A DNA stretch of 52,531 nt, from positions 1 through 52,531 of the forward strand of contig NZ_JAQMSD010000164.1 of assembly GCF_028330525.1 (NCBI RefSeq), in the 5' to 3' direction. The notes beneath the pieces are model-generated. The model had not been told where the DNA came from. It saw only the letters and a list, made by a program, of their open reading frames with translations, and made no database searches. This DNA comes from Spirulina sp. CS-785/01. Its GTDB lineage: Bacteria; Cyanobacteriota; Cyanobacteriia; Cyanobacteriales; Spirulinaceae. Shown here piece after piece: positions 24,787 to 41,996 of this stretch (position 1 is its first letter; the number at the start of each line of letters is the position of its first letter). The position numbers were made by a program, and so were the translations under genes.

Positions 24787-25020
24787 AGAAAAATCCAGTC
24801 ATACAGAACTAGAGTACATGATTCTTGACTATTACGAACTGTCTCCTCTCTGGGAAACTTCATCAAAACTTCACATAAAAGCCGCCCAATGCTTACACAC
24901 TTCACACAATCTTGTCAGAGATTCTACCACCAACCTGCTAAAGTCAGGGTAGATGGATAAATCTCAGTCATCGACTCCCGACACCAAACCATTTAAAATC
25001 TGCTTGAGAGGGTGCTAACC

Positions 25021-28000
25021 ATGCTAGGACGTTTATTCCGGAAATCTCCAACCCCAACCTTAGAAGTAAACCGAGTCAGCGACTCCACTCAACTCTTACA
25101 ACACTGTGAACTACCGGATGAGTTAATTGTCTCTGAAGACAATACCCCAGAGCAAACTTCCTCAGAGACTCCTCAACCCACCCCAGACCCTCAAAATCCC
25201 CTTGTGATAGAGGAAGTAACGGTAACAGAAGATAAGTCCTCAGAACCCCAAAAAAAAACCTCAGAGAGTCCTCAACCCACCCCAGAACCCGAAAATGATG
25301 AGTTAATTGTTACTGAAGATAAGTCCTCAGAACCCCAAAAGAACCCTTCAGAGAGTCCTCAACCCACCCCAGAACCCGAAAATCCTGTTGTGATAGAGGA
25401 AGTAACGGGAACAGAAGATAAGTCCTCAGAACCACAAGAAAACCCCTCAGAGACTCCTCAACCCTCCTCAGAACCTCAAAATCCTGTTGTGATAGAGGAA
25501 GTGACAGTCCCAGAGGGAAGTAACCTAGAAAACCCTGATCCTGTGATTCCCTTTGCTCAACAATTTGATGCAGGTATCTTCACTGTAGATGAAACTGGTC
25601 AAGTGAACGTTGATTTCCTCGCAGATGGTCGCAAATATCGGGGTCAACTGGCCATGATCAACGTCGAGGGGATGGAACAATTTGACTATGGGACAACAGA
25701 GTTCATTCAAGAAGCAGCAAGACGCGCATTGAGTGACTCCCCTCTCGGTCGCATCATTATTTCTGACCGAGACGAAGGAGCAAGGTTTAATAAACAGTTC
25801 TTTGGTAAATATAACCGATCCAATTACTTAGGAAACAAAACCTTTGATCTGCAACCCGGTGGCCAATATGCGTTTATGCTCATTCCCAAGGGGAAAATGA
25901 AGTCTGTACTGAAACGGCCTGTTTTAAATAAAGTTCGCAGTCCCCTCTTTTCCTTTGAACAAGAGCAAATGGCCTCACTCTCCGGGGGTGCAGCATTTGC
26001 TTGGGAAGATTTGGATGTGGAAAAAAGAAGTGATGCGGATTTTAATGACTTAATTTTTCGGGTTGAGGGAGTCACAGGAGAGGCTGTAACGAGTGTAGAG
26101 GAAGCGATTAACCCCAGTCAAGATTGGCGGGAGACTGAAGCAGGTCGAGAGGTTTTAGACTATCTGGAGTCTATCCAGATACCACAGGAGAATGAAACTC
26201 CTCAAGATGTGAAACTCTTGGTGGATGCGGTTTATAATCCGGGGGAAACGTTGTCGTTTCCGGGGTTGGTGGCCGATGAAGATGGGGGAAGTGATATTGC
26301 GCGAGTGGATTTCTGGTTACAGCAGGATGGGGGAGAGTGGGTTGATATTAGTGATGCGGTAACGTTTACTTCTGATCATTATGATGCAGAACGGGCTAAG
26401 TTTAATTATGAATTAGAAGGACTTGACCCTGGACGGTATCAATTAAAAGCTGTGGCCTACGATAGTACGGGGGCAGCAGGGGAAGAAAGCACCCATGGGT
26501 TTACGGTGTTATCTGTACCGGAAGATGCGGGACTCTCCGATCGCACTCGCATGGCCATTGAGCGATCGCTGAATCTCAACAACTACAACCCCAATGCCCT
26601 CAGTCAAGCCACCCAATGGGTTGTCAGTGTCAACTCTAGCATAGCAGCCGATGAGTTAGCCGCAGCTTGGGGCGCGACCAATTTAGGAGCAACGGGAGAG
26701 ATTCCCAACACCTACACCTTTCAGTTTACCTCTGGGCTTGACCCCTATTTCCTCACCAGCCAATTAAACCAAGATGCGGCCATTGAATTTGCCTATCCTC
26801 TCGTCCCCATGTACCTCGATTTTTACGGCAACCCAGAGGATGAACCCTTGGTGAAAGATGGCACACAATGGCATTTACGCAGTGGCATTGAACCGGAAGC
26901 CGATGCCAATGTTACCCAAGCATGGCAGAGTACAACGGGAGAGGGTGTTGTTATTGGGGTTGTGGATGATGGGTTTGAGTACCAGCATTCCGACCTGAGC
27001 GACAATTATCGTTCGGAATTAAGTTATGATTTTGACGAATACGACGGTGAACCCACCCCTCGGTTAAAACAAGTTCAGGTCGATTATCACGATTGGACGG
27101 ACAATTGGATTAATGATGAGGCCAATTATTTTCAGGTAGGAGTCCCGGCCAGTGGGGATGTGGCCCAATTGACCCTGACGTTTGATCTCTGGCATGATGC
27201 GATCGCAGACCTAGACATCTCCCTCAAAAGTCCCCACGGCACAGTCATTCCCTTAGAAAACATCGGCGGCCCCTCCTATTCCGCACCCCTCCATGGGTTT
27301 ACCGGAGAAAATGCCCAAGGATACTGGACATTAATCATCGAAAAAAATGAATCCGTAGCCAATGGGTTACTCGACTCCTTTTCTTTAACCCTAGACACCT
27401 ACAACGGTCACGGGACAAGAGTTGCAGGAGTCGCCACCGCCCATGGAGAAAACAGCTTTGGCGGCAGTGGAGTCGCCCCTAATGCCCACTGGGCCGGGTT
27501 ACGCATGGGATCAACTGCCGTCACCGAATATCAAATTACCGATGCCCTCTCCCACTACAAAAACGACATTGATATTTATAACAATAGTTGGGGGCAAGGC
27601 TTTTATAGTGCGGCTCTGCCAAACGTTGAGAACCTGTTTGCCAATGTTGAAGATGGCCGCAATGGAGCAGGGAATATTTATGTCTTCGCTGCGGGTAATG
27701 ATCGCATCGATCCCCACACAAATAACTATCCCTACGGTAACGTCAACTATAACAGCCTAGCCAATGCCCGACAAACCATCGCCGTCGGAGCAATTGACCA
27801 CCACGGAGAGCAAACCGTTTACAGTACCCCAGGGGCCGCCTTACTGGTGTCGGCCTATTCCGGAGATGGGACAACCGACATTACCACCACCAGCGTTAAT
27901 AATAGTTATGTGGATGACTTCAGTGGGACTTCTGCCTCAGCCCCCTTTGTATCGGGTGTAGTCGCCTTAATGTTAGAAGCCAATCCTAATTTAACCTGGC

Positions 28001-30948
28001 GAGATGTCCAAACCATCTTAATTGAAACCGCCCAACCCGAAAACGGCAACCAAGACAACTTAAACGACCCCAACGACCCCGACTGGGTACAAAATGGAGC
28101 AGGATACTGGGTTAATCATAAATACGGTTTTGGGGCTGTCGATGCTCAAGCAGCCGTCGAAAAAGCCACCAACTGGACACTGTTAAACCAAGAAACAAAG
28201 CTCTCACAACGCGCATTAGTCGCCCAAGCTATCCCCAAATATAACCCCAATGATCCCTTAACCTCCACCATCACCCTTAACCCCCAAGACAACCTGAGTG
28301 TAGAATGGGTAGAAGTCGGTTTTAGCACCCAACACCGCTACATCGGCGACTTAGAGATTACGCTCATCTCCCCCGACGGTACAGAATCCGTCTTATCAGA
28401 ACAACACTTCCACCACAGTTACAACCACCACAACTATCAAGAGAAAGTCTATCATTGGACCTTCACCTCCGCCCGTCACTGGGGCGAGTCAGCATCCGGA
28501 GAATGGGAATTACAAGTCCGAGACAAACACAACGGGAATGGGAGTAGTCCCTTCTTTCACAACATCTGGAAAAGTTGGAGTCTCAACCTTTACGGCACAT
28601 CCCCCAACACTCCTCCAGAATTTAAGATAGTCACTAATACCAACGATAGCGGTGCAGGCAGTTTACGGGCAGTACTAGAGTGGGCAAATGCCAACCCTGG
28701 CACAGATCTGATTTCCTTTAACATTCCCACTACAGACCCCGGTTACAATGCAACTACCAACACCTTTACCATTCAACCCCTCTCCGCTTTACCGAAAATT
28801 ACTGACGCAATCATCTTAGATGCAACAACTCAACCCGGATTGACCAACAAACCCATGATCGAACTTGATGGCAGTTTAGCAGGAAATGAAACACATGGAC
28901 TGCATATCAGAGCAGGAGATAGCACTGTAAAAGGTTTTGTTATTAACCGTTTTGACCGTCAAGGAATTTATCTAGACTCTGCCGATAATAATATCATTCA
29001 AGGAAATTATATTGGAACAGATGTTACAGGAACAAAACTTGGTCGTAATGGTGGAAATGGTATTTATATGGCTTCTTCATCAGGTAATTTAATTGGAGGG
29101 GCTACATCTAATGCACGGAATATTATTTCTGGCAATGAAAGTTATGGTGTAAGTATTTATTCCTCAAAATGGCAAAAAAACTTCGTACAAGGAAATTATA
29201 TTGGCACTGATATTACAGGAAAAAAAGATTTAGGAAATAATAAATATGGAGTGGTTATTGGCAGTAGCAGTAATAATGTTATTGGAGGTATTAATCCCGG
29301 TGAAGGAAATATAATTGCATATAATGGATGGGATGGAGTAAGAATTAAAAATAATAATGCTACCACGATTAATAATAGTGTGCTTTCCAATTCCATATTT
29401 GGAAATAAATATTCTGGAATAACATTAGGTAAGTATTTTAATCAAAGTTTACAAAATGATGAAAAAGATATAGATGAGGGTGAAAATCACTTACAGAATC
29501 ACCCAAATTTGGTTTCTGTAAATCTTGCGGAAAATTCAATAGAAATAAATGGAAATTTTAATAGCACGCCAAACAAAAAGTTCCGATTAGAATTTTTCGG
29601 TAATCCCAATAATGATGGAGAAGGGAAAAACTTTTTAGGTTCTCAGAAAGTCACTACAGACAGCAATGGTAATGCTAATTTTAATATATTTTTATCTAAT
29701 GTTGCGGCAGATCGATTTGTAACGGCTACAGCTACTGATTCACAGGGAAATACCTCCGAGTTTTCCAATGCAATCAGAATTGTTGGGACTCCCAATAATT
29801 CTCCTACTTTAACTAACATCGATTTACTTTCAGGAGTAGTTGGTAATCAACCTTTTAAGATTAATTATGAAGATTTGTTAGCAGCATCTAATGCAGCAGA
29901 TACTGACGGAGATAAAATTTCCTTTCTTATTCAATCAGTAAATTCTGGAACTCTAACCAAAAATGGCAAATCTGTAATTTCTGGAGTAACAACCCTATCT
30001 CCTGGAGAAGTTCTAATTGGTGAATATAGCCAAAAAGATTTTATTCAAACCATGCATTCATACATTCCTGCGTTTACCGTGACAGCTACGGATGGTATAG
30101 AAAAATCTCAAAAACCTGTAGATGTAACCTTGTCATCAGGATACTACTTAACACAACCAAAAATTGAGCAATTTAGTCTTTCAAATGCAAATGGATTAAC
30201 TTTATCAGTCCAAGGGTATTTTCCAACTCAGGGGTGGACATTGAACCCCGTTACACACGAACGCGACGGTAATACATTTAAAGTTGGAATCACTGCACTT
30301 GCTCCTTATATAGGACTCACAGCAATAGAGTCGTTTAGCAAAGATATTGTATTGGACTCCGATATTTTTGACACGGAAAATTCTTCCTATAAAGTCATCA
30401 TCAATGACACGATAACAACAGAAATTTCTCTCACTTCATCCACTATAACTTCTTTCAATACCAACCCCTACACTAATCCCTACCAAAGCGAAACCGACAG
30501 TCCCTTCTATACCCACCCCAACCTCATCCTCGAAGACTTTGAAGACGGACTCCTGAACACCCCAGGAGTCACCGCATCCACCGGGACAATTTCCAACACC
30601 ACCAACACCGTGGACTCCCTCACCGGACAAAGTTGGCGTATCTCAGAAAACACCCTCACCCTCACCTTTGATGACACTGTACTCGGTATATACCCCATTG
30701 ATGTTGGCGTGGCCATCACCGACATCGAAACCAACAACGGAACAGGAACAGTGAGACTCGAAGCATGGGACGCACAAGGCGTTTTCCTCGGTGCAACCCA
30801 ACCCCAAGACTTCGGGGATGGCCTCACCAACGGGTCAACCGCAGAAGACCGTTTCTTAGGCATTAGCCACGATAACGGCATTAGTAAAGTCACCCTAAGC
30901 ACCGATAGCACCAATTGGGAGTTAGACCACCTCCAGTACGTCGTTTAA
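25021..30948 (+). CDS. Giant subtilisin/kexin-like multidomain protein (DUF4114, S8 peptidase, P domains, beta-helix)
   Basis: About 1,975 residues from the ATG at 25021, chosen over the GTG at 25012 because GAGAGG is well spaced before it. Order: an acidic Pro/Glu-rich segment with four ~35-residue repeats (about 30-170), DUF4114 (about 230-350, 'FAWEDLDVEKRSDADFND'), an Ig-like domain (about 405-500), a prodomain-like part, then an S8 catalytic domain. Catalytic residues are D649 ('VVDDGFEYQH'), H797 ('NGHGTRVAGV'), N893 and S971 ('GTSASAPFVSG'). The D-to-H spacing is 148 residues, because a P-domain-like segment (about 690-795) lies between them. A second P domain follows (about 1060-1195), then a right-handed beta-helix (about 1200-1500) and cell-surface-type C-terminal domains. 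No classical signal peptide is visible. It is probably an extracellular or surface protease; the substrate is unknown. Confidence 0.87.
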   Translation: MLGRLFRKSPTPTLEVNRVSDSTQLLQHCELPDELIVSEDNTPEQTSSETPQPTPDPQNPLVIEEVTVTEDKSSEPQKKTSESPQPTPEPENDELIVTEDKSSEPQKNPSESPQPTPEPENPVVIEEVTGTEDKSSEPQENPSETPQPSSEPQNPVVIEEVTVPEGSNLENPDPVIPFAQQFDAGIFTVDETGQVNVDFLADGRKYRGQLAMINVEGMEQFDYGTTEFIQEAARRALSDSPLGRIIISDRDEGARFNKQFFGKYNRSNYLGNKTFDLQPGGQYAFMLIPKGKMKSVLKRPVLNKVRSPLFSFEQEQMASLSGGAAFAWEDLDVEKRSDADFNDLIFRVEGVTGEAVTSVEEAINPSQDWRETEAGREVLDYLESIQIPQENETPQDVKLLVDAVYNPGETLSFPGLVADEDGGSDIARVDFWLQQDGGEWVDISDAVTFTSDHYDAERAKFNYELEGLDPGRYQLKAVAYDSTGAAGEESTHGFTVLSVPEDAGLSDRTRMAIERSLNLNNYNPNALSQATQWVVSVNSSIAADELAAAWGATNLGATGEIPNTYTFQFTSGLDPYFLTSQLNQDAAIEFAYPLVPMYLDFYGNPEDEPLVKDGTQWHLRSGIEPEADANVTQAWQSTTGEGVVIGVVDDGFEYQHSDLSDNYRSELSYDFDEYDGEPTPRLKQVQVDYHDWTDNWINDEANYFQVGVPASGDVAQLTLTFDLWHDAIADLDISLKSPHGTVIPLENIGGPSYSAPLHGFTGENAQGYWTLIIEKNESVANGLLDSFSLTLDTYNGHGTRVAGVATAHGENSFGGSGVAPNAHWAGLRMGSTAVTEYQITDALSHYKNDIDIYNNSWGQGFYSAALPNVENLFANVEDGRNGAGNIYVFAAGNDRIDPHTNNYPYGNVNYNSLANARQTIAVGAIDHHGEQTVYSTPGAALLVSAYSGDGTTDITTTSVNNSYVDDFSGTSASAPFVSGVVALMLEANPNLTWRDVQTILIETAQPENGNQDNLNDPNDPDWVQNGAGYWVNHKYGFGAVDAQAAVEKATNWTLLNQETKLSQRALVAQAIPKYNPNDPLTSTITLNPQDNLSVEWVEVGFSTQHRYIGDLEITLISPDGTESVLSEQHFHHSYNHHNYQEKVYHWTFTSARHWGESASGEWELQVRDKHNGNGSSPFFHNIWKSWSLNLYGTSPNTPPEFKIVTNTNDSGAGSLRAVLEWANANPGTDLISFNIPTTDPGYNATTNTFTIQPLSALPKITDAIILDATTQPGLTNKPMIELDGSLAGNETHGLHIRAGDSTVKGFVINRFDRQGIYLDSADNNIIQGNYIGTDVTGTKLGRNGGNGIYMASSSGNLIGGATSNARNIISGNESYGVSIYSSKWQKNFVQGNYIGTDITGKKDLGNNKYGVVIGSSSNNVIGGINPGEGNIIAYNGWDGVRIKNNNATTINNSVLSNSIFGNKYSGITLGKYFNQSLQNDEKDIDEGENHLQNHPNLVSVNLAENSIEINGNFNSTPNKKFRLEFFGNPNNDGEGKNFLGSQKVTTDSNGNANFNIFLSNVAADRFVTATATDSQGNTSEFSNAIRIVGTPNNSPTLTNIDLLSGVVGNQPFKINYEDLLAASNAADTDGDKISFLIQSVNSGTLTKNGKSVISGVTTLSPGEVLIGEYSQKDFIQTMHSYIPAFTVTATDGIEKSQKPVDVTLSSGYYLTQPKIEQFSLSNANGLTLSVQGYFPTQGWTLNPVTHERDGNTFKVGITALAPYIGLTAIESFSKDIVLDSDIFDTENSSYKVIINDTITTEISLTSSTITSFNTNPYTNPYQSETDSPFYTHPNLILEDFEDGLLNTPGVTASTGTISNTTNTVDSLTGQSWRISENTLTLTFDDTVLGIYPIDVGVAITDIETNNGTGTVRLEAWDAQGVFLGATQPQDFGDGLTNGSTAEDRFLGISHDNGISKVTLSTDSTNWELDHLQYVV

Positions 30949-31099: not shown

Positions 31100-31705
31100 A
31101 TGCCTTACTGGTCAGCAGAAACCCAAAGTTACCAGAATACAACCGGATTAGCCTTTGACTTAATGAACAGTGGCTATCTAACCATTGCTCCATCCAATGA
31201 TGCAACGGAGACAATAGACGTTCCCTTCGTCTGGTGGCTACCCTCTAGCAGCTATTCTTCAGGAATTAATTGGTGGGATGATTTAGAGATTCCCACAGAT
31301 AGCAGTTCCTCAGATGCAGGACTGGATACCCTCGATTTTGTTAATTTTGACCTCTATAATGCTCCAGATGAATATTATCTAGTGCTGCCAGAGTTAGAGA
31401 GTAACGCTTTCCGTGAACTAGATGGAAACTGGTTAATTTCAGACGGCTATGATCCCACAGTGGACAATAGCATTTTTGAGCAAATGCTGACCGAGGATTA
31501 TCAGTTCGTCTCGGTACAAGAGAAAGATGTAAGTATTGAGGACTTAGTGAACTATCCCGTCAGTCCACTCCCTCCCAATGACACCATCCCGACTTCCGTT
31601 CCCGAACCATCTTCTGTGGTGAGTACCCTAATTTTAGGTGCAGTTTTTGTGGGTACAGTCGTCAAACGGATCTTTTTCTCCAAAACTAAAGCGAAAACCG
31701 CTTAA
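31100..31705 (+). CDS. PEP-CTERM sorting-signal protein
   Basis: A 201-residue protein ending in a PEP-CTERM tripartite signal: 'VPEPSS', a hydrophobic helix ('VVSTLILGAVFVGTVV') and a basic tail ('KRIFFSKTKAKTA'). Exosortase systems process such proteins at the membrane. The N terminus has no recognisable Sec signal peptide, which is odd for this class. An AAGGAG ribosome site supports the start at 31100. The acidic Asp/Ser/Trp/Tyr-rich body matches no family I know. It lies 150 bp after the S8 protease gene, and a truncated paralogue follows. Confidence 0.75.
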   Translation: MPYWSAETQSYQNTTGLAFDLMNSGYLTIAPSNDATETIDVPFVWWLPSSSYSSGINWWDDLEIPTDSSSSDAGLDTLDFVNFDLYNAPDEYYLVLPELESNAFRELDGNWLISDGYDPTVDNSIFEQMLTEDYQFVSVQEKDVSIEDLVNYPVSPLPPNDTIPTSVPEPSSVVSTLILGAVFVGTVVKRIFFSKTKAKTA

Positions 31706-32941: not shown

Positions 32942-35644
32942 GTGCGGCTCAAAATTGGACTCCTAACCACCCTACTCTCCCTTAGTATCTCCCCCACCCT
33001 AGCCAAAGCCCAAGTTAGTGCAGATACCACCCTCCCCAATAACACCATTGTCACCCCTGCGGGTGCAGCCTTTCAGATTACCGGAGGGACAACAGTAGGG
33101 AGTAACTTATTTCACAGCTTTAGTGACTTCTCCCTCAATGCAGGAGAAGCGGCCTTATTTTTCAATAATCCCGCCATTAACAATATCTTTAGTCGCGTAA
33201 CAGGGAATAACATCTCAACCATTAACGGGTCAATTCAAGTACAAAATCCCGTTAACTTCTACCTCCTCAACCCCAACGGAATTCTCTTTGGCCCCAATGC
33301 TAGTTTAAACATCGGCGGTTCATTCTTTGCCAGTACCGCAGACAGTCTCATTTTTGCCGACGGTACAGAATTTAGTGCCACCACCCCCACCACCTCCCCA
33401 CTCTTAACCCTGACTGTCCCCATTGCACTACAATTTGGTGGTTCTCCTGGCAATATTACCGTACAGGGGACAGGACATAATCTGCAATCGGGGCCCGGTG
33501 GAGCAGTGGTTTCTTTGCCCCCTGCAACGCAGTTAAACGGAACAACTGGGCAAACTATTGCGCTAGTAGGAGGGGAAGTTAATTTAGAAGGGGGAAATGT
33601 AATTGCCAGAGAAGGAGAAATTGAAATTGGCAGCGTAGGAAGTAATGAAAGAGTGGCGATTACGCCGGATTTAAACTTAGATTATACCGGAGTTAGTACC
33701 TTTCAAAATATTAACCTCACTCAAAAAGCCTCAATTGATGCGAGTGGAGTAGGAGGAGGCCGCATTCATCTCCAAGGCCAACAAATTAATGTTAGCGGTG
33801 GGTCAAATATTCTCTCCATTACCGAGGGAGGCAATGCAGGGGTTGGAGTGACGGTGAATGCGTCGGAGTCGGTGAATTTAGTCGGGACAGATAGCACGGG
33901 AGTCATTCCCAGCGCTATTCTCACCGAAACCATTCCTCGGTTTCCAGGAGGGGGGTCTGGGGGACGGTTGGAGATCAATGCACCGCAAATTAGTATTACT
34001 GAGGGGGCCCAAGTGTCGTCTTCGAGTTTTACGCAAGGACGAGCAGGGAATATTGTCATTAATAGTCCATCTTTAGAGATTCGTGGGAAAACGCCTCAAG
34101 GGTTTCCCAGTGGGATTTTTGCCGCAACGGTGGGGTTAGGTGCAGGGGGAAATGTCACAATTAATAGTGAACAAATGACGCTGCAAGATGGGGTGAGGGT
34201 CGAAAGTACCACCCGACAAGTTGGAAACCAACCCGCAGGGAATTTAACAATTACGACGCAAAATTTATTAGTGGAAGGGGGGTCGCAAGTATCCACTTCT
34301 ACATCCGGAGGAGGGAATGCAGGAGGGTTACGTATTGAAGCAGAAAATATCCATCTGAGAGGGACAGGAGAGCAAGCAAGTGGTCTGTTTAGTCAAGTCA
34401 ATTCCTCGACTGCAACGGGACAAGGGGGGAGTATGACCTTGGAGACGCAGCAATTACAGATCGAAGCAGGAGCGCAAATTTCAGCAGGGACATTTGGCCG
34501 AGGGGATGGGGGTGTAGTTGATATTCGTGCGTTTGAGGGAATTGAGATAGAAGGACGGGGGAGAAGTCGTCAGGGTCAACCTTTGCCAAGTGGCATTTTT
34601 ACGCAGGTGGATGAGCAAGCAAGGGGTGAGGGGGGAGATATTCGGGTGCAGACTCCTCGTTTAACGGTGCGGTCGGGGAGTGCGGTTTCTGCGGGGACAT
34701 TGGGGATAGGAAATGGGGGGACGGTGACGATAAATGCGTCAGAGTGGGTGGAGATACAAGGGGAGAATACGGGAATTGCTGCACGGACTAGGGGGAGTGC
34801 AGATGCAGGTGATGTGAGTATTACGACTCCTCAGTTAATTATTGGGAGTCAAGGGAGTGCCACGGTGGAAAGTTTGGGGAGTGGGGATGCAGGGAATTTA
34901 AAGGTGAATAGTAATTACATCGACCTCAACCAAGGCCGCATTACGGGGGAAACGACTTCTGGACAGGGGGGGAATTTAACGATTACGGGTCGTGATATTC
35001 GCCTTTTAAATAATAGCCAAATCTCGACTACTGCGGGAACGGAGGATCAACCGGGAGATGGGGGAAATATTACTATTACCACAGATACCCTAGTGGGGTT
35101 ACAAAATAGCGATATTACGGCCAACTCCTTTCGCGGTCGGGGGGGTCAGATTAATATTACCGCAGAGGGGATTTTTGGCTTGGAGGTGCGGGAGGAATTA
35201 ACCCCCAATAACGATATCACAGCCTTTTCTCTGTTTGACCCCAGTCTCAATGGGGAAGTGAACTTACGGACTCCAGATATTGACCCCACCCAAGGGTTAA
35301 CGGATGTTCCCACCATTGAGTCTCCCGAACAGGTGACAGAAGTCTGTCCAGAACGCGCAGATAATGAAGCGAACGAGTTAACCACCGCAGGCCGCGGTTT
35401 ACCCACTGATCCCACTGCACCGTTAGGAGAGAGTGAAATTCTGGTTGAACCCATTGCTCCGGTTACGGAGACGGGAGAGGGGATCAATTCTTCCCCCCAA
35501 GTGGAAACGACTCGTCGGGAGGTTTTGGTGGCTCAAGATTGGTATATTAATGAGCAAGGCCAGTTAATTCTAACGGAAATGGCGGTTAATTTGAGTCCAC
35601 GGTCTTCTTTAAAGTTTCCGGTGCGCTGTCAGAATCGCCCTTAA
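32942..35644 (+). CDS. Two-partner secretion exoprotein (filamentous haemagglutinin N-terminal domain)
   Basis: A 900-residue TpsA-type secreted protein. The GTG start at 32942 is chosen because it gives a classical signal peptide ('RLKIGLLTTLLSLSISPTLAKAQ'). The TPS domain follows (about residues 25-165), with the conserved 'NPNGILFGPNASLNIGG' segment recognised by the TpsB pore. The rest is a Gly/Asn/Thr-rich parallel beta-helix of ~20-residue repeats. A C-terminal region with 'ERADNEANEL', 'GRGLPTDP' and 'DWYINEQGQLIL' resembles that of many cyanobacterial TpsA proteins. It is probably exported to the surface as an adhesin-like fibre. Its TpsB candidate lies 1.8 kb downstream on the same strand, separated by inserted genes. 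Confidence 0.9.
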   Translation: MRLKIGLLTTLLSLSISPTLAKAQVSADTTLPNNTIVTPAGAAFQITGGTTVGSNLFHSFSDFSLNAGEAALFFNNPAINNIFSRVTGNNISTINGSIQVQNPVNFYLLNPNGILFGPNASLNIGGSFFASTADSLIFADGTEFSATTPTTSPLLTLTVPIALQFGGSPGNITVQGTGHNLQSGPGGAVVSLPPATQLNGTTGQTIALVGGEVNLEGGNVIAREGEIEIGSVGSNERVAITPDLNLDYTGVSTFQNINLTQKASIDASGVGGGRIHLQGQQINVSGGSNILSITEGGNAGVGVTVNASESVNLVGTDSTGVIPSAILTETIPRFPGGGSGGRLEINAPQISITEGAQVSSSSFTQGRAGNIVINSPSLEIRGKTPQGFPSGIFAATVGLGAGGNVTINSEQMTLQDGVRVESTTRQVGNQPAGNLTITTQNLLVEGGSQVSTSTSGGGNAGGLRIEAENIHLRGTGEQASGLFSQVNSSTATGQGGSMTLETQQLQIEAGAQISAGTFGRGDGGVVDIRAFEGIEIEGRGRSRQGQPLPSGIFTQVDEQARGEGGDIRVQTPRLTVRSGSAVSAGTLGIGNGGTVTINASEWVEIQGENTGIAARTRGSADAGDVSITTPQLIIGSQGSATVESLGSGDAGNLKVNSNYIDLNQGRITGETTSGQGGNLTITGRDIRLLNNSQISTTAGTEDQPGDGGNITITTDTLVGLQNSDITANSFRGRGGQINITAEGIFGLEVREELTPNNDITAFSLFDPSLNGEVNLRTPDIDPTQGLTDVPTIESPEQVTEVCPERADNEANELTTAGRGLPTDPTAPLGESEILVEPIAPVTETGEGINSSPQVETTRREVLVAQDWYINEQGQLILTEMAVNLSPRSSLKFPVRCQNRP

Positions 35645-35787
35645 TTGTTGTTTTTGGGGTTAATTTAGCCTTGGGTTTAAACCTAAGGCTGAGAGCGAAA
35701 ACCCGTTAAAACGGGTTGAAGATAAAAGATTATATGAAATCCGCTTTATTGTTTATTGGTCTTCAATTGGCTTAAAAAGAGAGAGTG

Positions 35788-35851
35788 AGAAACCGGGTTT
35801 CTTATTAGTATATTGTGGCACATCAACAATTTTGAAAGAAACCCGGTTTCT
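35788..35851. repeat. Double-palindrome element, copy 2
   Basis: Terminal AGAAACCGGGTTTCT (35788-35802) and its exact reverse complement (35837-35851) enclose 34 bp of unrelated sequence. The left flank GAGTG is shared with copy 3. Confidence 0.88.
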
Positions 35852-35889
35852 TGAACTACAGTGAAATTCCCATATCTGCCAAAAATTTC

Positions 35890-35961
35890 ATTGCATTAAC
35901 TCCACTGGTTTATCTGTTTGATCCCAGTCTCAATGGGGAGGTCAATTTACGCACTCCTTGA
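35890..35961 (+). pseudogene. Remnant of a second TpsA gene
   Basis: An open stretch ending at TGA (35959-35961) encodes 'LFDPSLNGEVNLRTP', identical to a segment near the TpsA C terminus (coding bases near 35233-35277), with only synonymous-type DNA changes. The flanks diverge and no longer encode a TpsA. This implies a former tandem copy, or a fragment left by recombination. Confidence 0.7.
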
Positions 35962-36056
35962 TCAAGGACAAGGAATTGATTACAAGATAGTAATTCAGCA
36001 ATTAAAAGAGAAATCACAAAAATTAAAAGAAATGCAGACAACAGATTTAAAATAAA

Positions 36057-36204
36057 GATGCTCAATCTGTTAATGAGTCAGTTCATGAGACGGAACAGAG
36101 TGTTTATGATCGGTTAGCCGAGATAGGAGCAATTGGTGTTGCTAAGAATTTACCCCCTGATCTTAGCAAAAATTATGTTAACAAACGCGCTAGTTTTTTA
36201 TAAA
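36057..36204 (+). pseudogene. Remnant of an antitoxin-like C terminus
   Basis: A frame without a good start encodes 'YDRLAEIGAIGVAKNLPPDLS', like the C-terminal tail ('...GLIG..K..PPDLSTN') of small cyanobacterial antitoxin or ribbon-helix-helix proteins. The rest of the gene is missing, and its end overlaps the end of the RelE-like gene on the other strand. Confidence 0.45.
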
Positions 36205-36454
36205 CTTCATCATCATTTCGTTTATCTACTAAAATCACTTCTACTAAGTCCTCTTCGGGGTTAAATCGATAAACGATCCGATATTCACCACTATCAACCC
36301 GATAATAACCCGGATAACCTTTTAACGGTTTGCTGTCATTAGGTAAAGGGTTTACGTTGAGAGATAAAGTTTTTTTGGCAATTTGAGCAGCAATTTTAGG
36401 TTGTAAACCTTTTAAGAAATCTAAAACTGCCTCTAACCCGTCTAGTTTAGCCAT
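36173..36454 (-). CDS. RelE/ParE-type toxin
   Basis: A 93-residue basic protein with the RelE fold signature: 'PKIAAQIAKKTLSL', 'DSKPLKGYPGYYRVDSGEYRIVYRF', 'VEVILVDKRNDDEVYKKL'. The central 'YRVDSGEYRIVY' strand and the C-terminal Lys/Arg/Tyr are candidate RNA-contacting residues. RelE toxins cleave mRNA in the ribosome. Its start overlaps the antitoxin's end by eight bases, the normal type II arrangement. Confidence 0.92.
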   Translation of the reverse strand: MAKLDGLEAVLDFLKGLQPKIAAQIAKKTLSLNVNPLPNDSKPLKGYPGYYRVDSGEYRIVYRFNPEEDLVEVILVDKRNDDEVYKKLARLLT

Positions 36455-36710
36455 TCGCCAACTTCTCTAATGTAGTGGTAAACGCTTCACTCCCTACCAT
36501 TGAAGATTGACTTAGGGCGTTTTCTGCTGCCTGTCCCCAGTGTAAATCCTCTAATTCTTCGAGTCGGGTCACGAGTTGCTGATAAGCCTCTGCTGACAGA
36601 ATAACATGGCTAGGGCGTTTTTGCTTGGTGATCAGCACGGGTTCAACTGTTGCTTGATCAAAGACTTCCCCATGTTGATTCCGCGTTTGGGTCAAGGTGT
36701 AGCTTTTCAT
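36447..36710 (-). CDS. Phd/YefM-type antitoxin
   Basis: An 87-residue protein with a Phd-fold N terminus ('TLTQTRNQHGEVFDQATVEPVLITKQKRPSHVILS'-like; key parts 'PVLITK' and 'HVILSAEAYQQL') that should bind the operator, and a flexible C-terminal half that should wrap the toxin. It is the first gene of the antitoxin-toxin pair, presumably autoregulated. Confidence 0.92.
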   Translation of the reverse strand: MKSYTLTQTRNQHGEVFDQATVEPVLITKQKRPSHVILSAEAYQQLVTRLEELEDLHWGQAAENALSQSSMVGSEAFTTTLEKLANG

Positions 36711-36777
36711 AGTTATGAGGGGTTGAGGATTATCTTGAACATTATGTCTATAATAGCAAAAATGTACATTTTTTTAA

Positions 36778-37416
36778 TTAATAGTTTGTCCTGACCCAAT
36801 TTTTAAAATGTTGAATGGCTTGACTACTGCCAGAAGTTTTGCTTTGCTGGACATATTGATTGACTAATTCAATGATCGGAATCTCAGGAAAATTAGGACT
36901 ATAATTTGCTTCTCTATATTGTCCATTTTGTAGTAAATTAATCTGGAGTCCAGTGGCAGAATATCGCCATAATTCCAACCCCCCTAAACGCTGATAATTG
37001 TCTAATTGAGTCCGTGATGTTAAATCAATTTCTATGGCTAAATCCGGCGGAGGATCAAGGGTCATATCTAAACGGTTTTTGCCAATGACTGCGGCTTGAT
37101 TTTGAATATAAAAACAAGCATCGGGTTCAACGGCCTGTGTCATGAGTTCATTTTTTAAAGTGGTTGAACCCAAGGTTTCATAATTCCTGCCTTGTTCGCT
37201 GAGTAAAATTTTGCTCATGTCGCCAATGATTTCTTTGGCTTTTTCATGTTCAGGGAGGGGGACTCTAATTTCTAGTAAACCATTACTATAAGAAAATCTG
37301 GCAGCGCGATGTTCTCCAAATTCAGTTAAAATACTTTCAAATTGCTGCCAGCTAATATCTTCTAGTAAGAGTTGTTGCCCTGCTTGTAGCTTTAATTGTC
37401 GTAATTCCAATAACAT
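36778..37416 (-). CDS. Uma2 family protein, second copy
   Basis: A 212-residue Uma2/DUF820 protein of a different subgroup from the one at 32080. It has 'ISWQQFESILTEFGEHRAARFSYSNGLLEI' in place of the usual N-terminal box, then 'EPDACFYIQN', 'DPPPDLAIEIDLTSRT' and 'LGGLELWRY', giving the conserved Asp, Glu and Leu-Trp positions of the nuclease-like fold. It lies between the toxin-antitoxin pair and tpsB and is divergent from tpsB. The function is unknown. Confidence 0.9.
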   Translation of the reverse strand: MLLELRQLKLQAGQQLLLEDISWQQFESILTEFGEHRAARFSYSNGLLEIRVPLPEHEKAKEIIGDMSKILLSEQGRNYETLGSTTLKNELMTQAVEPDACFYIQNQAAVIGKNRLDMTLDPPPDLAIEIDLTSRTQLDNYQRLGGLELWRYSATGLQINLLQNGQYREANYSPNFPEIPIIELVNQYVQQSKTSGSSQAIQHFKNWVRTNY

Positions 37417-37443
37417 CTTGTTTTCCCTTATTCAATTGTCAAT

Positions 37444-39243
37444 ATGAATCGCCAACTGTCAAATACTCAACTAGGAACTTTTTTTGCTTCTTTTGGGGTG
37501 GGTGCAACGATCGCGCTTTTCCCCCATTCCATATTAGCCCAAACACCTCCCAATCCCGAACTCCGACCCCCCACCCCTAACCGCGAAACCCCCACTCTCC
37601 CTAACAGGGAAACCCCGGAATTGCGACAAGGGGAGGAGAGTTTCTTTAATACTGATGCGGCCACAGAATGCGAGATAGAAACCGCCACAAAACCAGAAAA
37701 ATTGTTAGAGACTATCCCACCCCCAACTGGGGAAAGAGGCGCGATGACAAACCCACCTAACTCCCTCACTCTAGAGTTTATCGGCAATCGGGTTTATAGT
37801 GACGGCCAACTCCAACAACTCCTAGAAGATCAGCAAATTCCCACCCAACCTGACTCCTTCCCCCAAGTCCTCGCAGCGGCCTCGGCAATTACAAAATATT
37901 ACAATGATACGGGATATATTAACTCCTATGCCGTTCCCCCACCGCAAACGGTGACAGATGGCGCAATTAAAATTGTGGTGATTGAAGGGGGGATTGAAAC
38001 GATTCGACTGATCCGGGAGAATAATAGGAGTCGGCTTAGGGATAATTATATTTGCGATCGCATCGCCGCAGCCACTACCCCCCTCAACCTCACCCAACTC
38101 CTCGACACCCTACGACAACTCCAACTCAACCCCCTCATCAAAAGTATATCCGCAGAATTAACCCCCAGTGCGCGGTTAGAAAGTCATCACCTCAACCTCC
38201 GCTTCCAAGAAGCCAAAACCCTCACCGCCAGCACCACCCTCGCTAACAGTCGGCCCCCCAGTGTTGGGGGGTTTCGTCGTCGCGGCCAACTCACCCAAGC
38301 CAACCTCTTAGGGTTAGGAGACAGTCTCACCGTGGGTTACAGCAACACCGACGGGAGTAACGCCTTTGACATCAACTACACCCTCCCCATCAACCCCCAA
38401 AATGGCACAGTTACCCTCGCCTATGGTACAGCCTCCAGTGGGGTGATTGAAGACCCTTTTAAAGCCTTAAACTTACTCGGAGACTCCCAATATTTTGACT
38501 TCACCTTCCGTCAACCCCTCCATCAAACCGCCAGCGAAGCAGTTGCACTCAGTGTCACGGCCTCCCGTAGAAATAGTCAAACCTCAATTTTAGGCTTTAA
38601 CTTCCCCCTCTCCCCAGGGGCCGACGCAGAGGGAAAAACGCGACTCTCTGCCCTGCGTTTTGGGGTAGAGTGGGAACAACTCAGCGATGTAGAAGTTTTC
38701 GCTTTGCGGGGCCAAGTGAGTGTCGGGTTAGATATCTTCAATGCAACCATTAACTCTGACTCCCCCGATAGTCGCTTCCTCTCCACCCAAATACAAAGTC
38801 TCTGGTTACGCAGTTTAGCCCCCGATACCCTCCTATTATTACAGGGAAACCTACAATTAGCAGATCGGCCTCTCCTCTCTCAAGAACAGTTTACCTTGGG
38901 CGGGTTAGGGAATGTGCGCGGTTATCGCCAGGATGCCTTTTTACGGGATAATGGGGCGTTTGCGTCGGTGGAGGTGCAATATCCCCTCTGGGGCAACTCT
39001 GAGGCGAATTGGGGCGTTTTACAGGTGACTCCCTTTCTTGATTTTGGCACAGCCTGGAATCATGGGGAAACCACCGAGGCACAAACGTTATTATCCATTG
39101 GCACGGGATTACGCTGGTCGATTGGCGACCACACATCGGCTACAATTTACTGGGGTATTCCTCTAATTGATATTGCAGGACGAGAGGCAACATGGCAAGA
39201 CAATGGCATTCATTTCGTAATTCAATCCCAAGGCGGATTTTAA
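37444..39243 (+). CDS. TpsB/ShlB-FhaC-type outer-membrane translocator
   Basis: A 599-residue protein. A signal-like N terminus ('GTFFASFGVGATIALFPHSILAQ') is followed by a Pro-rich linker, a POTRA domain (about 100-180, 'LEFIGNRVYSDGQL'), and a 16-strand Omp85-type barrel. The barrel contains the lid-lock motif V491-R492-G493-Y494 in 'GLGNVRGYRQD'. It should bind the TPS domain of the exoprotein in the periplasm and export it across the outer membrane. The likely partner is the TpsA at 32942. Its 3' end overlaps the TPR-CHAT gene by 52 bp. Confidence 0.93.
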   Translation: MNRQLSNTQLGTFFASFGVGATIALFPHSILAQTPPNPELRPPTPNRETPTLPNRETPELRQGEESFFNTDAATECEIETATKPEKLLETIPPPTGERGAMTNPPNSLTLEFIGNRVYSDGQLQQLLEDQQIPTQPDSFPQVLAAASAITKYYNDTGYINSYAVPPPQTVTDGAIKIVVIEGGIETIRLIRENNRSRLRDNYICDRIAAATTPLNLTQLLDTLRQLQLNPLIKSISAELTPSARLESHHLNLRFQEAKTLTASTTLANSRPPSVGGFRRRGQLTQANLLGLGDSLTVGYSNTDGSNAFDINYTLPINPQNGTVTLAYGTASSGVIEDPFKALNLLGDSQYFDFTFRQPLHQTASEAVALSVTASRRNSQTSILGFNFPLSPGADAEGKTRLSALRFGVEWEQLSDVEVFALRGQVSVGLDIFNATINSDSPDSRFLSTQIQSLWLRSLAPDTLLLLQGNLQLADRPLLSQEQFTLGGLGNVRGYRQDAFLRDNGAFASVEVQYPLWGNSEANWGVLQVTPFLDFGTAWNHGETTEAQTLLSIGTGLRWSIGDHTSATIYWGIPLIDIAGREATWQDNGIHFVIQSQGGF

Positions 39244-41996
39244 AGCAATTGGGGCGATTTTTTGGCCTTTGTCTGTGTAGTCTCTTGCTCATTCTTGGGG
39301 TATCCACAGTGACGGTTTCCCAAGTTTCTCCCCCTGCAACGGAAATCGACAGTTTAGAAGCCAGTTTAGTGGAGTATCGTCAACAGGGGGATATTCTCAA
39401 CCAAGCGGCCACGTTGAGTAATTTATCTCTTGCCTATCAACAACAGGGGAATTGGCAAGAGGCTGAGAATAGCATACAACAAAGTTTGGGTTTGTTGGCG
39501 GATTATCCGGTGACAAGGGCGAGGGAGGAGGTTTATGCAGAAACCAATAATATTTTAGGCCGTTTATATTTTGCTAAGGGGGAGTTCGATCGCGCTTTAA
39601 CGGCTTGGGAAAATACGGTGAATCTTTACACTAATTTAGCACAACCCATAGGGGTGCAACGGGGGTTAATTAATCAAGGGAAAGCGATGCAGGAGTTGGG
39701 GCTGTTTGATCGCGCTTGTACGGTATTATTACAGGCAACGGGGTTAAAAGGTCAGTTAGAAGGGGTTGAGGGGATTAGTTATTTAGATTGTCAGGCATTT
39801 ATTGAATGGCAAACACAGTCTGAGGGACTAAATTTATCCTCTCTTTCTCCTAGCATTACTCAGGTTATCGGGTTAAGACGATTAGGAGATATTTTACGAC
39901 CTATTGGGGAATTTGACTTAGCTCAAACCATTTTAGAGCAGAGTCAACAAATGGCGCAAAAATTGGGGGATAGAGAGCAAGAGTCTCTCACTATACTGAG
40001 TTTAGCAAATTTAGAACGGGCTAGGGGCGATCGCGCCAAAGGCCAACAAGATGCCGCAGGTTCACTCCGCTTTTCCATTACCTTCTGTCCTCAACTCCCA
40101 GAAACCGGATATAACCAGGCAAAAGAACATTATCAAGAGGCGATAAGATTATATAAAAATGCTGCTCAATTGACCCATTCAACTGTTCAATTTAAAGCAG
40201 AAGTTAATCAGCTTAGTCTCTTATTAAAGCTCAATAATCCTGTAGCAGCTAATCCTTTAATTCAAACAATTTCTCAACAAATAACACCAGAATTTATTAA
40301 AAATCAACGAGGGATAGATTATAGTTTAGTTAATTATGCCCAAAGTTTAGCTTGTTTACAACAAAAGTTAAGTTATAAGAGTTTAGATAATCAAAAAACT
40401 TGGCAATTCATTCATGATTTATTGTCCAGAACTATTGAGCATAGTAAACAACGACAAGACTGGAAAGCATTAGCTTATACATCAGGATATTTAGGTCATT
40501 TATATGAACAAGAATATCAAGTTAATTCCTCTAACCCTGAATTACTTAAAAAAGCAAAAAAATATACAATAGAAGGGCTAATAAATGCCCAGTCGGGAAA
40601 ACAAGATGCTGCTACTATTGCTTATCAATGGCAATGGCAACTAGGTCGCATTTTAAAAACAGAAAAACAAGCCGGTTTTGATATTTCTCAAAGCAACATT
40701 ATTAGCACTTATAAAGCAGCATTTAATACATTACAAGTTTTGCGAAATGATTTACTTGCGTTTAATCAAGAAATTCAGTATAATTTTAGAGATAAAGTTG
40801 AACCCGTTTACCGAGAATTAGCCGATTTATTATTAACTCCAGTTAATAACCAACCTATTTCTCAACCGAATTTAAGAGAAGCAAGGCAAGTAATAGAAGC
40901 GTTACAACTAGCTGAACTTGATGACTTTTTTCAAAATCCTTGTACATCAGTCAATCAAGAAAGTATAGAGGGGTTAGACCAAAAAACAGCTATCCTTTAT
41001 ACCATTATTCTTAAAGATAGAATAGAAACTATTATCAACTTACCCAAGCAAAATGAGTTAGAACACTCAAGTTATAAAATACAATGGGAGGTAGCACAAA
41101 GTTGGTTAGAAGAATTACAAAAGGCACTAGGTGAACCGAATGGAACAAACCGAGTTCAAACCAATTCTCAAGAAATTTATAAATGGTTAATTAAGCCAAT
41201 TCTATCTACCTTGCAAACGCAACAAGTTAAAATCTTAACCTTTGTTTTAGACTCGCCCTTGCGGAATATTCCTATGGCGACGTTATACAATGAAGCAGGA
41301 CATTATTTAATTGAAGATTATGCAGTATCTCTTGCACCTGGTTTACAGTTAGTCGATCCTAACGTTTTAGAAAGAGAACAATTACAAGCTATTTTAGCAG
41401 GTTTAACAGAGTCTAGGTTCGGATATGCACCGTTAAGAAATGTGAGTGGTCAACTCGAAAGCGTTAGTGCAGTAATCCCTAGAGAAAGTAATATTTTATT
41501 AAATGATAATTTTACGCAAAATGATTTTCAAGAGCAAGTGAAATCCTCTGCAAGTCCTATTGTTCATTTAGCCACTCACGGTCAATTTAGTTCGCAAGCT
41601 GAAAATACGTTTATTGTCACATGGGATAACCGCATTAATGTTAGAGAATTAAGACAGTTTCTGAAAGGACAAGAGCAAACCCGCCAAAACCCTATAGAAT
41701 TACTGGTTTTGGCGGCTTGCGAAACGGCTCAGGGAGATAAGCGAGCCGCATTAGGACTGGCTGGTGTTGCTGTAGAAGCAGGAGCAAGAAGTACCTTAGC
41801 GACCCTCTGGAAAGTCGTTGCTGATGAGTCACCGAACAAAATACTGACTGAATTTTACAGACAGTTACAAGACCCCACAGTGAGTAAAGCAGAAGCCTTA
41901 CAAGCGGCTCAACTAAAATTTATCAATGATGACCGTCGCCGAAACCGTCGTCCTTATATTTGGTCGCCCTATATTTTAATTGGGAATTGGCTCTAA
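39192..41996 (+). CDS. TPR-CHAT protein, exported, caspase-like protease fold
   Basis: A 934-residue protein. A hydrophobic N-terminal segment ('FFGLCLCSLLLILGVSTVTVSQ') after basic residues acts as a signal or anchor. Tetratricopeptide repeats span about residues 50-500, and a C-terminal CHAT domain covers about 640-934. The predicted catalytic dyad is H796 ('HLATHGQF') and C843 ('LAACETAQGD'). CHAT proteases are separase/caspase relatives; family members cleave specific proteins after activation through their TPR parts. The ATG at 39192 lies within tpsB; a TTG a few codons after the tpsB stop is a possible alternative start. The overlap implies coupled translation with tpsB, so a role in processing or control of the secreted exoprotein is plausible but unproven. 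Confidence 0.9.
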   Translation: MARQWHSFRNSIPRRILKQLGRFFGLCLCSLLLILGVSTVTVSQVSPPATEIDSLEASLVEYRQQGDILNQAATLSNLSLAYQQQGNWQEAENSIQQSLGLLADYPVTRAREEVYAETNNILGRLYFAKGEFDRALTAWENTVNLYTNLAQPIGVQRGLINQGKAMQELGLFDRACTVLLQATGLKGQLEGVEGISYLDCQAFIEWQTQSEGLNLSSLSPSITQVIGLRRLGDILRPIGEFDLAQTILEQSQQMAQKLGDREQESLTILSLANLERARGDRAKGQQDAAGSLRFSITFCPQLPETGYNQAKEHYQEAIRLYKNAAQLTHSTVQFKAEVNQLSLLLKLNNPVAANPLIQTISQQITPEFIKNQRGIDYSLVNYAQSLACLQQKLSYKSLDNQKTWQFIHDLLSRTIEHSKQRQDWKALAYTSGYLGHLYEQEYQVNSSNPELLKKAKKYTIEGLINAQSGKQDAATIAYQWQWQLGRILKTEKQAGFDISQSNIISTYKAAFNTLQVLRNDLLAFNQEIQYNFRDKVEPVYRELADLLLTPVNNQPISQPNLREARQVIEALQLAELDDFFQNPCTSVNQESIEGLDQKTAILYTIILKDRIETIINLPKQNELEHSSYKIQWEVAQSWLEELQKALGEPNGTNRVQTNSQEIYKWLIKPILSTLQTQQVKILTFVLDSPLRNIPMATLYNEAGHYLIEDYAVSLAPGLQLVDPNVLEREQLQAILAGLTESRFGYAPLRNVSGQLESVSAVIPRESNILLNDNFTQNDFQEQVKSSASPIVHLATHGQFSSQAENTFIVTWDNRINVRELRQFLKGQEQTRQNPIELLVLAACETAQGDKRAALGLAGVAVEAGARSTLATLWKVVADESPNKILTEFYRQLQDPTVSKAEALQAAQLKFINDDRRRNRRPYIWSPYILIGNWL

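Follow-up and report, generated by a model that had tools for sequence, protein, structure and literature searches.

The window, i.e. the whole stretch of 52,531 nucleotides from Spirulina sp. CS-785/01 analysed here, contains on its forward strand an open reading frame (25012-30948) which is uninterrupted across its whole length and codes for 1978 amino acids when read from a GTG start at 25012, with an in-frame ATG at 25021. To judge from its sequence, the product is an active-looking, multidomain kexin-type (S8B-like) subtilase, and its domain make-up suggests that it is probably secreted. A DUF4114 domain (25849-26070, forward strand as for all features below; residues 280-353; 41.6 bits in Pfam at a cut-off of 27) precedes a putative kexin-type prodomain (26557-26820, residues ~516-603), which is folded in the AlphaFold2 model and matches the Pfam S8_pro-domain weakly, below the cut-off (E = 0.002), and at whose end, in the junction comprising residues 590-622, no paired basic residues are found in the sequence. 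The catalytic domain, as delimited by the Pfam S8 match and the alignment with furin, follows in two parts (26866-27063 and 27403-28137) separated by an inserted P domain (27064-27402, residues ~685-797; Pfam match at 27166-27393), and a further P domain sits at 28300-28539 (residues 1097-1176) in the position usual for kexins. The C-terminal region (28600-30945) consists of repetitive sequence suggestive of a beta-helix and then a weak cadherin-like match (Pfam Cadherin_5, E = 0.036, below the cut-off). Downstream on the same strand lie an open reading frame of 201 amino acids (31100-31705) that has no Pfam match and carries at its C-terminus a sequence (VPEPSS...) similar to a PEP-CTERM sorting signal and, in a row (32942-41996), genes for a two-partner secretion exoprotein with a TPS domain, a ShlB/FhaC-type transporter and a TPR-CHAT protein.

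Numbered from the GTG codon, the catalytic Asp is D652 (26965-26967), which sits in a canonical VVDDG motif in the first part of the catalytic domain and aligns to furin D153, and the second part contains the catalytic His, H800 (27409-27411), the oxyanion Asn, N896, and the catalytic Ser, S974, all four being intact. The ordered Asp, His and Ser triad with its oxyanion Asn, the Pfam S8 match and the superposition on furin together place the protein in family S8. The spacing of D652 and H800 amounts to 148 residues, compared to 41 in furin and to 29-56 (median 38.5) in 40 insert-free relatives, because a P domain of ~113 residues is inserted between them. An earlier note on this DNA had described D649 and H797 as lying 148 residues apart; these are the same two residues, numbered there from the ATG, which lies three codons further on, and the ~105 extra residues that it had seen between them are present and slightly more numerous (~109-113). 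An alternative catalytic Asp was rejected in view of the alignment of D652 to furin and the agreement of both AlphaFold2 models.

P domains are C-terminal partners needed by kexins and furin for folding and activity. Pfam finds in the open reading frame a single S8 domain stretched over residues 643-1041 (169 bits) and two P_proprotein stretches. The insert peptide, searched on its own against P_proprotein (PF01483; cut-off 21), reaches 40.5 bits at E = 3e-10, compared to 79 bits for the C-terminal P domain. A phmmer comparison of the protein with PDB sequences aligns mouse furin to query 8-78 and, as a separate piece, to 188-519; the insert is skipped and falls between residues 189 and 192 of furin, numbered according to the chain offset. 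A match to the P domain at E ≤ 0.01 is also obtained for 17 of 24 homologous inserts, among which invariance is confined to core positions (G, L, W), all others being variable. The Pfam match, together with the predicted fold, bears out the proposal of the earlier note that the inserted residues are a P domain, and a second such domain does occupy the normal place, as had been stated there.

An AlphaFold2 model of residues 504-1202, built from 34 sequences (mean pLDDT 85, pTM 0.81), predicts eight strands in the insert and likewise eight in the C-terminal P domain. It superposes on furin with Z 51.5 and an rmsd of 2.0 for 449 residues aligned over model positions 104-695, which leaves ~140 residues extra, and on Kex2 with Z 49.3. 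Predicted alone from 24 sequences, the insert reaches a pLDDT of 93 and a pTM of 0.86, and its best solved match is the P domain of furin (residues 444-574; Z 14.9, rmsd 2.3, 115 residues aligned), with a best Foldseek E of 1.2e-6. However, FlhE (4qxl), a non-kexin protein, matches the insert model at Z 13.2; the fold is thus common to other proteins too and would by itself not settle the family, whereas the Pfam match does. The ends of the insert join the catalytic domain at furin residues 189-192, the last strand ending ~3 residues before the catalytic His, and its C-terminal junction touches the segment equivalent to furin Asp191-Asn192. Adjoining the insert junction, Asn192 is one of the furin residues that contact ligands, along with Asp154 and Asp191 (PMC12703725). 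Structure prediction, which the earlier note had named as one way to check its proposal, places the insert outside the ordinary S8 fold and leaves D652 as the normal catalytic Asp; the insert is therefore predicted to be a complete P-domain beta-sandwich nested in the Asp-His surface loop of a furin-like core.

In furin, D258 and D306 are taken here to be the residues for a basic P1 (Asp306 belonging to S1), and D258, D301 and E331 to be the Ca2 ligands. The window protein has at the positions of D258, D301, D306 and E331 a gap, G, N and T, respectively, the placement of D258 being uncertain in the alignment. Its catalytic domain is immediately followed by a P domain, as in the kexin/furin type of S8B, but it has neither the basic-P1 residues nor the Ca2 ligands of that type. 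With these equivalents lost, furin-type recognition of a basic P1 and a Ca2 site are not expected, and the protein, which appears kexin-like in fold, is not classed as a proprotein convertase. The equivalent of Asp306 is D in none of 26 rows with a P insert as against 22 of 40 insert-free rows, i.e. it is absent from 18 of the insert-free relatives as well, and the association with the insert amounts to one or two evolutionary events (one to two independent pairs), so that it is untestable as a set of independent cases.

With respect to the distribution of the insert, a scan of GTDB species representatives yielded 78 named loci, to which sequences from the same genome and one other were added for comparison. 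A search for other S8 enzymes with a P domain between Asp and His, as the earlier note had suggested, finds it in 26 of 74 compared rows, all of them cyanobacterial and mostly from Oscillatoriales in the wide sense, with an Asp-His spacing of 148-207 (median 191), next to 40 insert-free rows and six with other inserts. Two paralogues with an Asp-His insert are encoded by the Spirulina sp. CS-785/01 genome itself (contigs C60 and C290). Of 386 cyanobacterial genomes drawn, 11 gave a strong match to the insert-bearing profile, one of these (L022) being insert-free. In insert-free homologues from five non-cyanobacterial genomes the profile is matched up to ~57-67 and again from ~180-190, and in several of these only 10-20 bases lie between the two profile pieces, as expected for an empty site. 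Relatives at E ≤ 1e-30 were present in 36 of 294 genomes of the phylum of a Pirellulales genome and in 13 of 398 genomes of the phylum of a Lautropia genome, and in none of these genomes does a profile match span the insert. Relatives from Planctomycetota and Pseudomonadota thus appear to have an empty site in this sample of genomes, which is not proof of absence. Viral contigs gave one distant match only, and plasmids four, all of which begin at or beyond query residue 170 and thus lie largely after the insert.

The compared rows also differ in further respects. In the protein of contig C60 (L009, 2404 amino acids), a third P domain, at residues ~1240-1410, separates the oxyanion Asn from the catalytic Ser, and a P domain in this position is also found in L015, L016, L017 and L122; L049, L051 and L063 have a long spacing ahead of the catalytic Ser, and in L111, which has an Asp-His P insert, the catalytic domain is followed by a tandem pair of P domains. 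In L054, L072 and L088 the Asp-His loop contains a long tandem repeat with a unit of ~20 residues, FGLSNRIRWSEDP... (FGLSNRIRW repeats), through which the Asp-His distance rises to ~500 in L072 and L088. Trp-rich GWGW inserts of ~45 residues occupy the loop in L042 and L096, and a helical-looking insert of ~85 residues in L039.

In a tree of the catalytic domain computed without the insert columns, all rows with P inserts, Trp-rich inserts and repeat inserts form one group of 31 rows (support 85/97); that the P insert arose only once is neither rejected nor demonstrated (p-AU 0.377). In the tree of P domains, which is limited by long branches and few columns (128), the C-terminal P domains form one clade (support 100/99), and the Asp-His inserts, the Asn-Ser inserts and one tandem domain form the other (99/94). 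A recent duplication of the C-terminal P domain of the same protein was also considered as the source of the insert and found unsupported, since with separate clades the insert is unlikely to be such a late copy. The dN/dS ratio of the insert in close pairs, where dS is finite, ranges from 0.17 to 0.65, i.e. it is below 1, and is usually above that of the catalytic part; the inserts are under purifying selection. In several pairs, though not in all, divergence is faster in the insert than in the C-terminal P domain. Across the rows compared, the nested P domain is a repeatedly inherited architecture.

As to the possible role of the insert, we tentatively favour, at a probability a little short of even, that it lies beside subsite S2 as a rigid stabilising wall and as an exosite that restricts and helps to select substrates. 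A complete P-domain beta-sandwich has entered the Asp-His surface loop of a subtilase and been inherited; adjoining S2, it would have formed a wall or exosite for substrate choice, and the family would have shifted from dibasic processing to other, member-specific substrate choice. The fast-changing surface of the insert and the loss of the furin S1 determinant fit such a shift. However, a purely stabilising role would give much the same evidence. In clostridial CspB, an inserted jelly-roll, which the authors liken to kexin P domains, rigidifies the subtilase and aids its autoprocessing (PMC3567191), and that the present insert is likewise mainly a module for folding and stability, with no direct part in substrate choice, would agree with the restriction of conserved insert positions to the core and with the purifying selection. 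Since the same protein already has a C-terminal P domain, and the insert adjoins the S2 region instead of a remote face and outpaces that domain in divergence in the pairs mentioned, we regard this role as possible but on balance doubtful.

The unrelated inserts found in the same loop in L042, L096, L039, L054, L072 and L088 might also indicate that the loop is simply permissive and the P domain a tolerated decoration of little function; this is unlikely, as the dN/dS below 1 and a P-domain signal kept in many diverged rows imply constraint and, outside the insert-bearing clade, insert-free enzymes are the rule. Calcium dependence is a trait of kexin-type enzymes and the active-site His is flanked by the insert, so that this domain might be thought to cover the active site as a lid under calcium control. 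However, none of the columns in 24 aligned inserts is acidic in at least 80% of the rows, and hence a conserved acidic cluster is missing, the window protein lacks the Ca2 ligands of furin (D258, D301, E331), and no calcium-sensing role is known for the furin P domain. Such a lid is therefore quite improbable, and the suggestion of the earlier note that the insert makes the protease gated or calcium-regulated finds no support here. That the inserted residues are part of the ordinary S8 fold and another Asp is catalytic can hardly be upheld at all, given the residues left over from the furin superposition, the confident folding of the insert alone as a P domain and the position of D652 in its canonical motif.

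Returning to the favoured wall and exosite beside S2, this reading might be extended, though with considerable reservation, to the view that the Asp-His loop is a socket for varied modules, with a second socket before Ser, and that the module plugged in sets substrate choice. P domains, Trp-rich segments and FGLSNRIRW repeats would then have been plugged into the Asp-His loop and kept, P domains in the second socket would have given rise to enzymes with three P domains, and the respective module would determine substrate choice after the loss of the furin-type basic specificity.

Amongst known systems, furin and Kex2 resemble the window protein in that the catalytic and C-terminal P domains superpose and a prodomain-like region lies upstream; the window protein differs by the additional P domain in its Asp-His loop, its far larger multidomain size and, with respect to furin, by lacking equivalents of the S1 residues and Ca2 ligands given above. 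In C5a peptidase, lactocepin and cucumisin a whole domain is inserted in the S8 catalytic domain as well, but it is a PA domain with a different fold and lies between His and Ser. Tripeptidyl peptidase II, a cytosolic giant oligomer, shares a long Asp-His insert, which in contrast to that of the window protein is not a P domain. The insert of CspB is placed between His and Ser, unlike the Asp-His site found here. In the PDB search with the window protein, CspB (4i0w) gave a weak sequence match only. This clostridial spore germination protease is likewise a subtilase interrupted by a beta jelly-roll (~130 residues), which however has not been described as a P domain, and it has no C-terminal P domain (PMC3567191). 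Within the Spirulina genome, the PrcA-like protein at C289 (L011) has S8 and a single C-terminal P domain as well, but its S8 match is continuous and the insert is absent. Subtilases with an inserted domain are thus already known, whereas in the open-access literature searched no earlier description was found of an S8 catalytic domain that harbours a P domain, whether in the Asp-His loop or elsewhere, nor of an Asp-His loop hosting several unrelated inserts. Many diverged cyanobacterial enzymes have a P domain beside the catalytic His, which shows that the module can be relocated to the substrate side of the enzyme, and the natural series of empty loop, P domain, other inserts and two nested P domains offers a means of testing how P domains and active-site loop inserts contribute to specificity.

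Finally, L009, L010, L015, L016, L017, L020 and L022 carry upstream of the active domain a degenerate S8-like domain with motifs such as AGTSVATARVTG, which might represent a tandem pseudoprotease.
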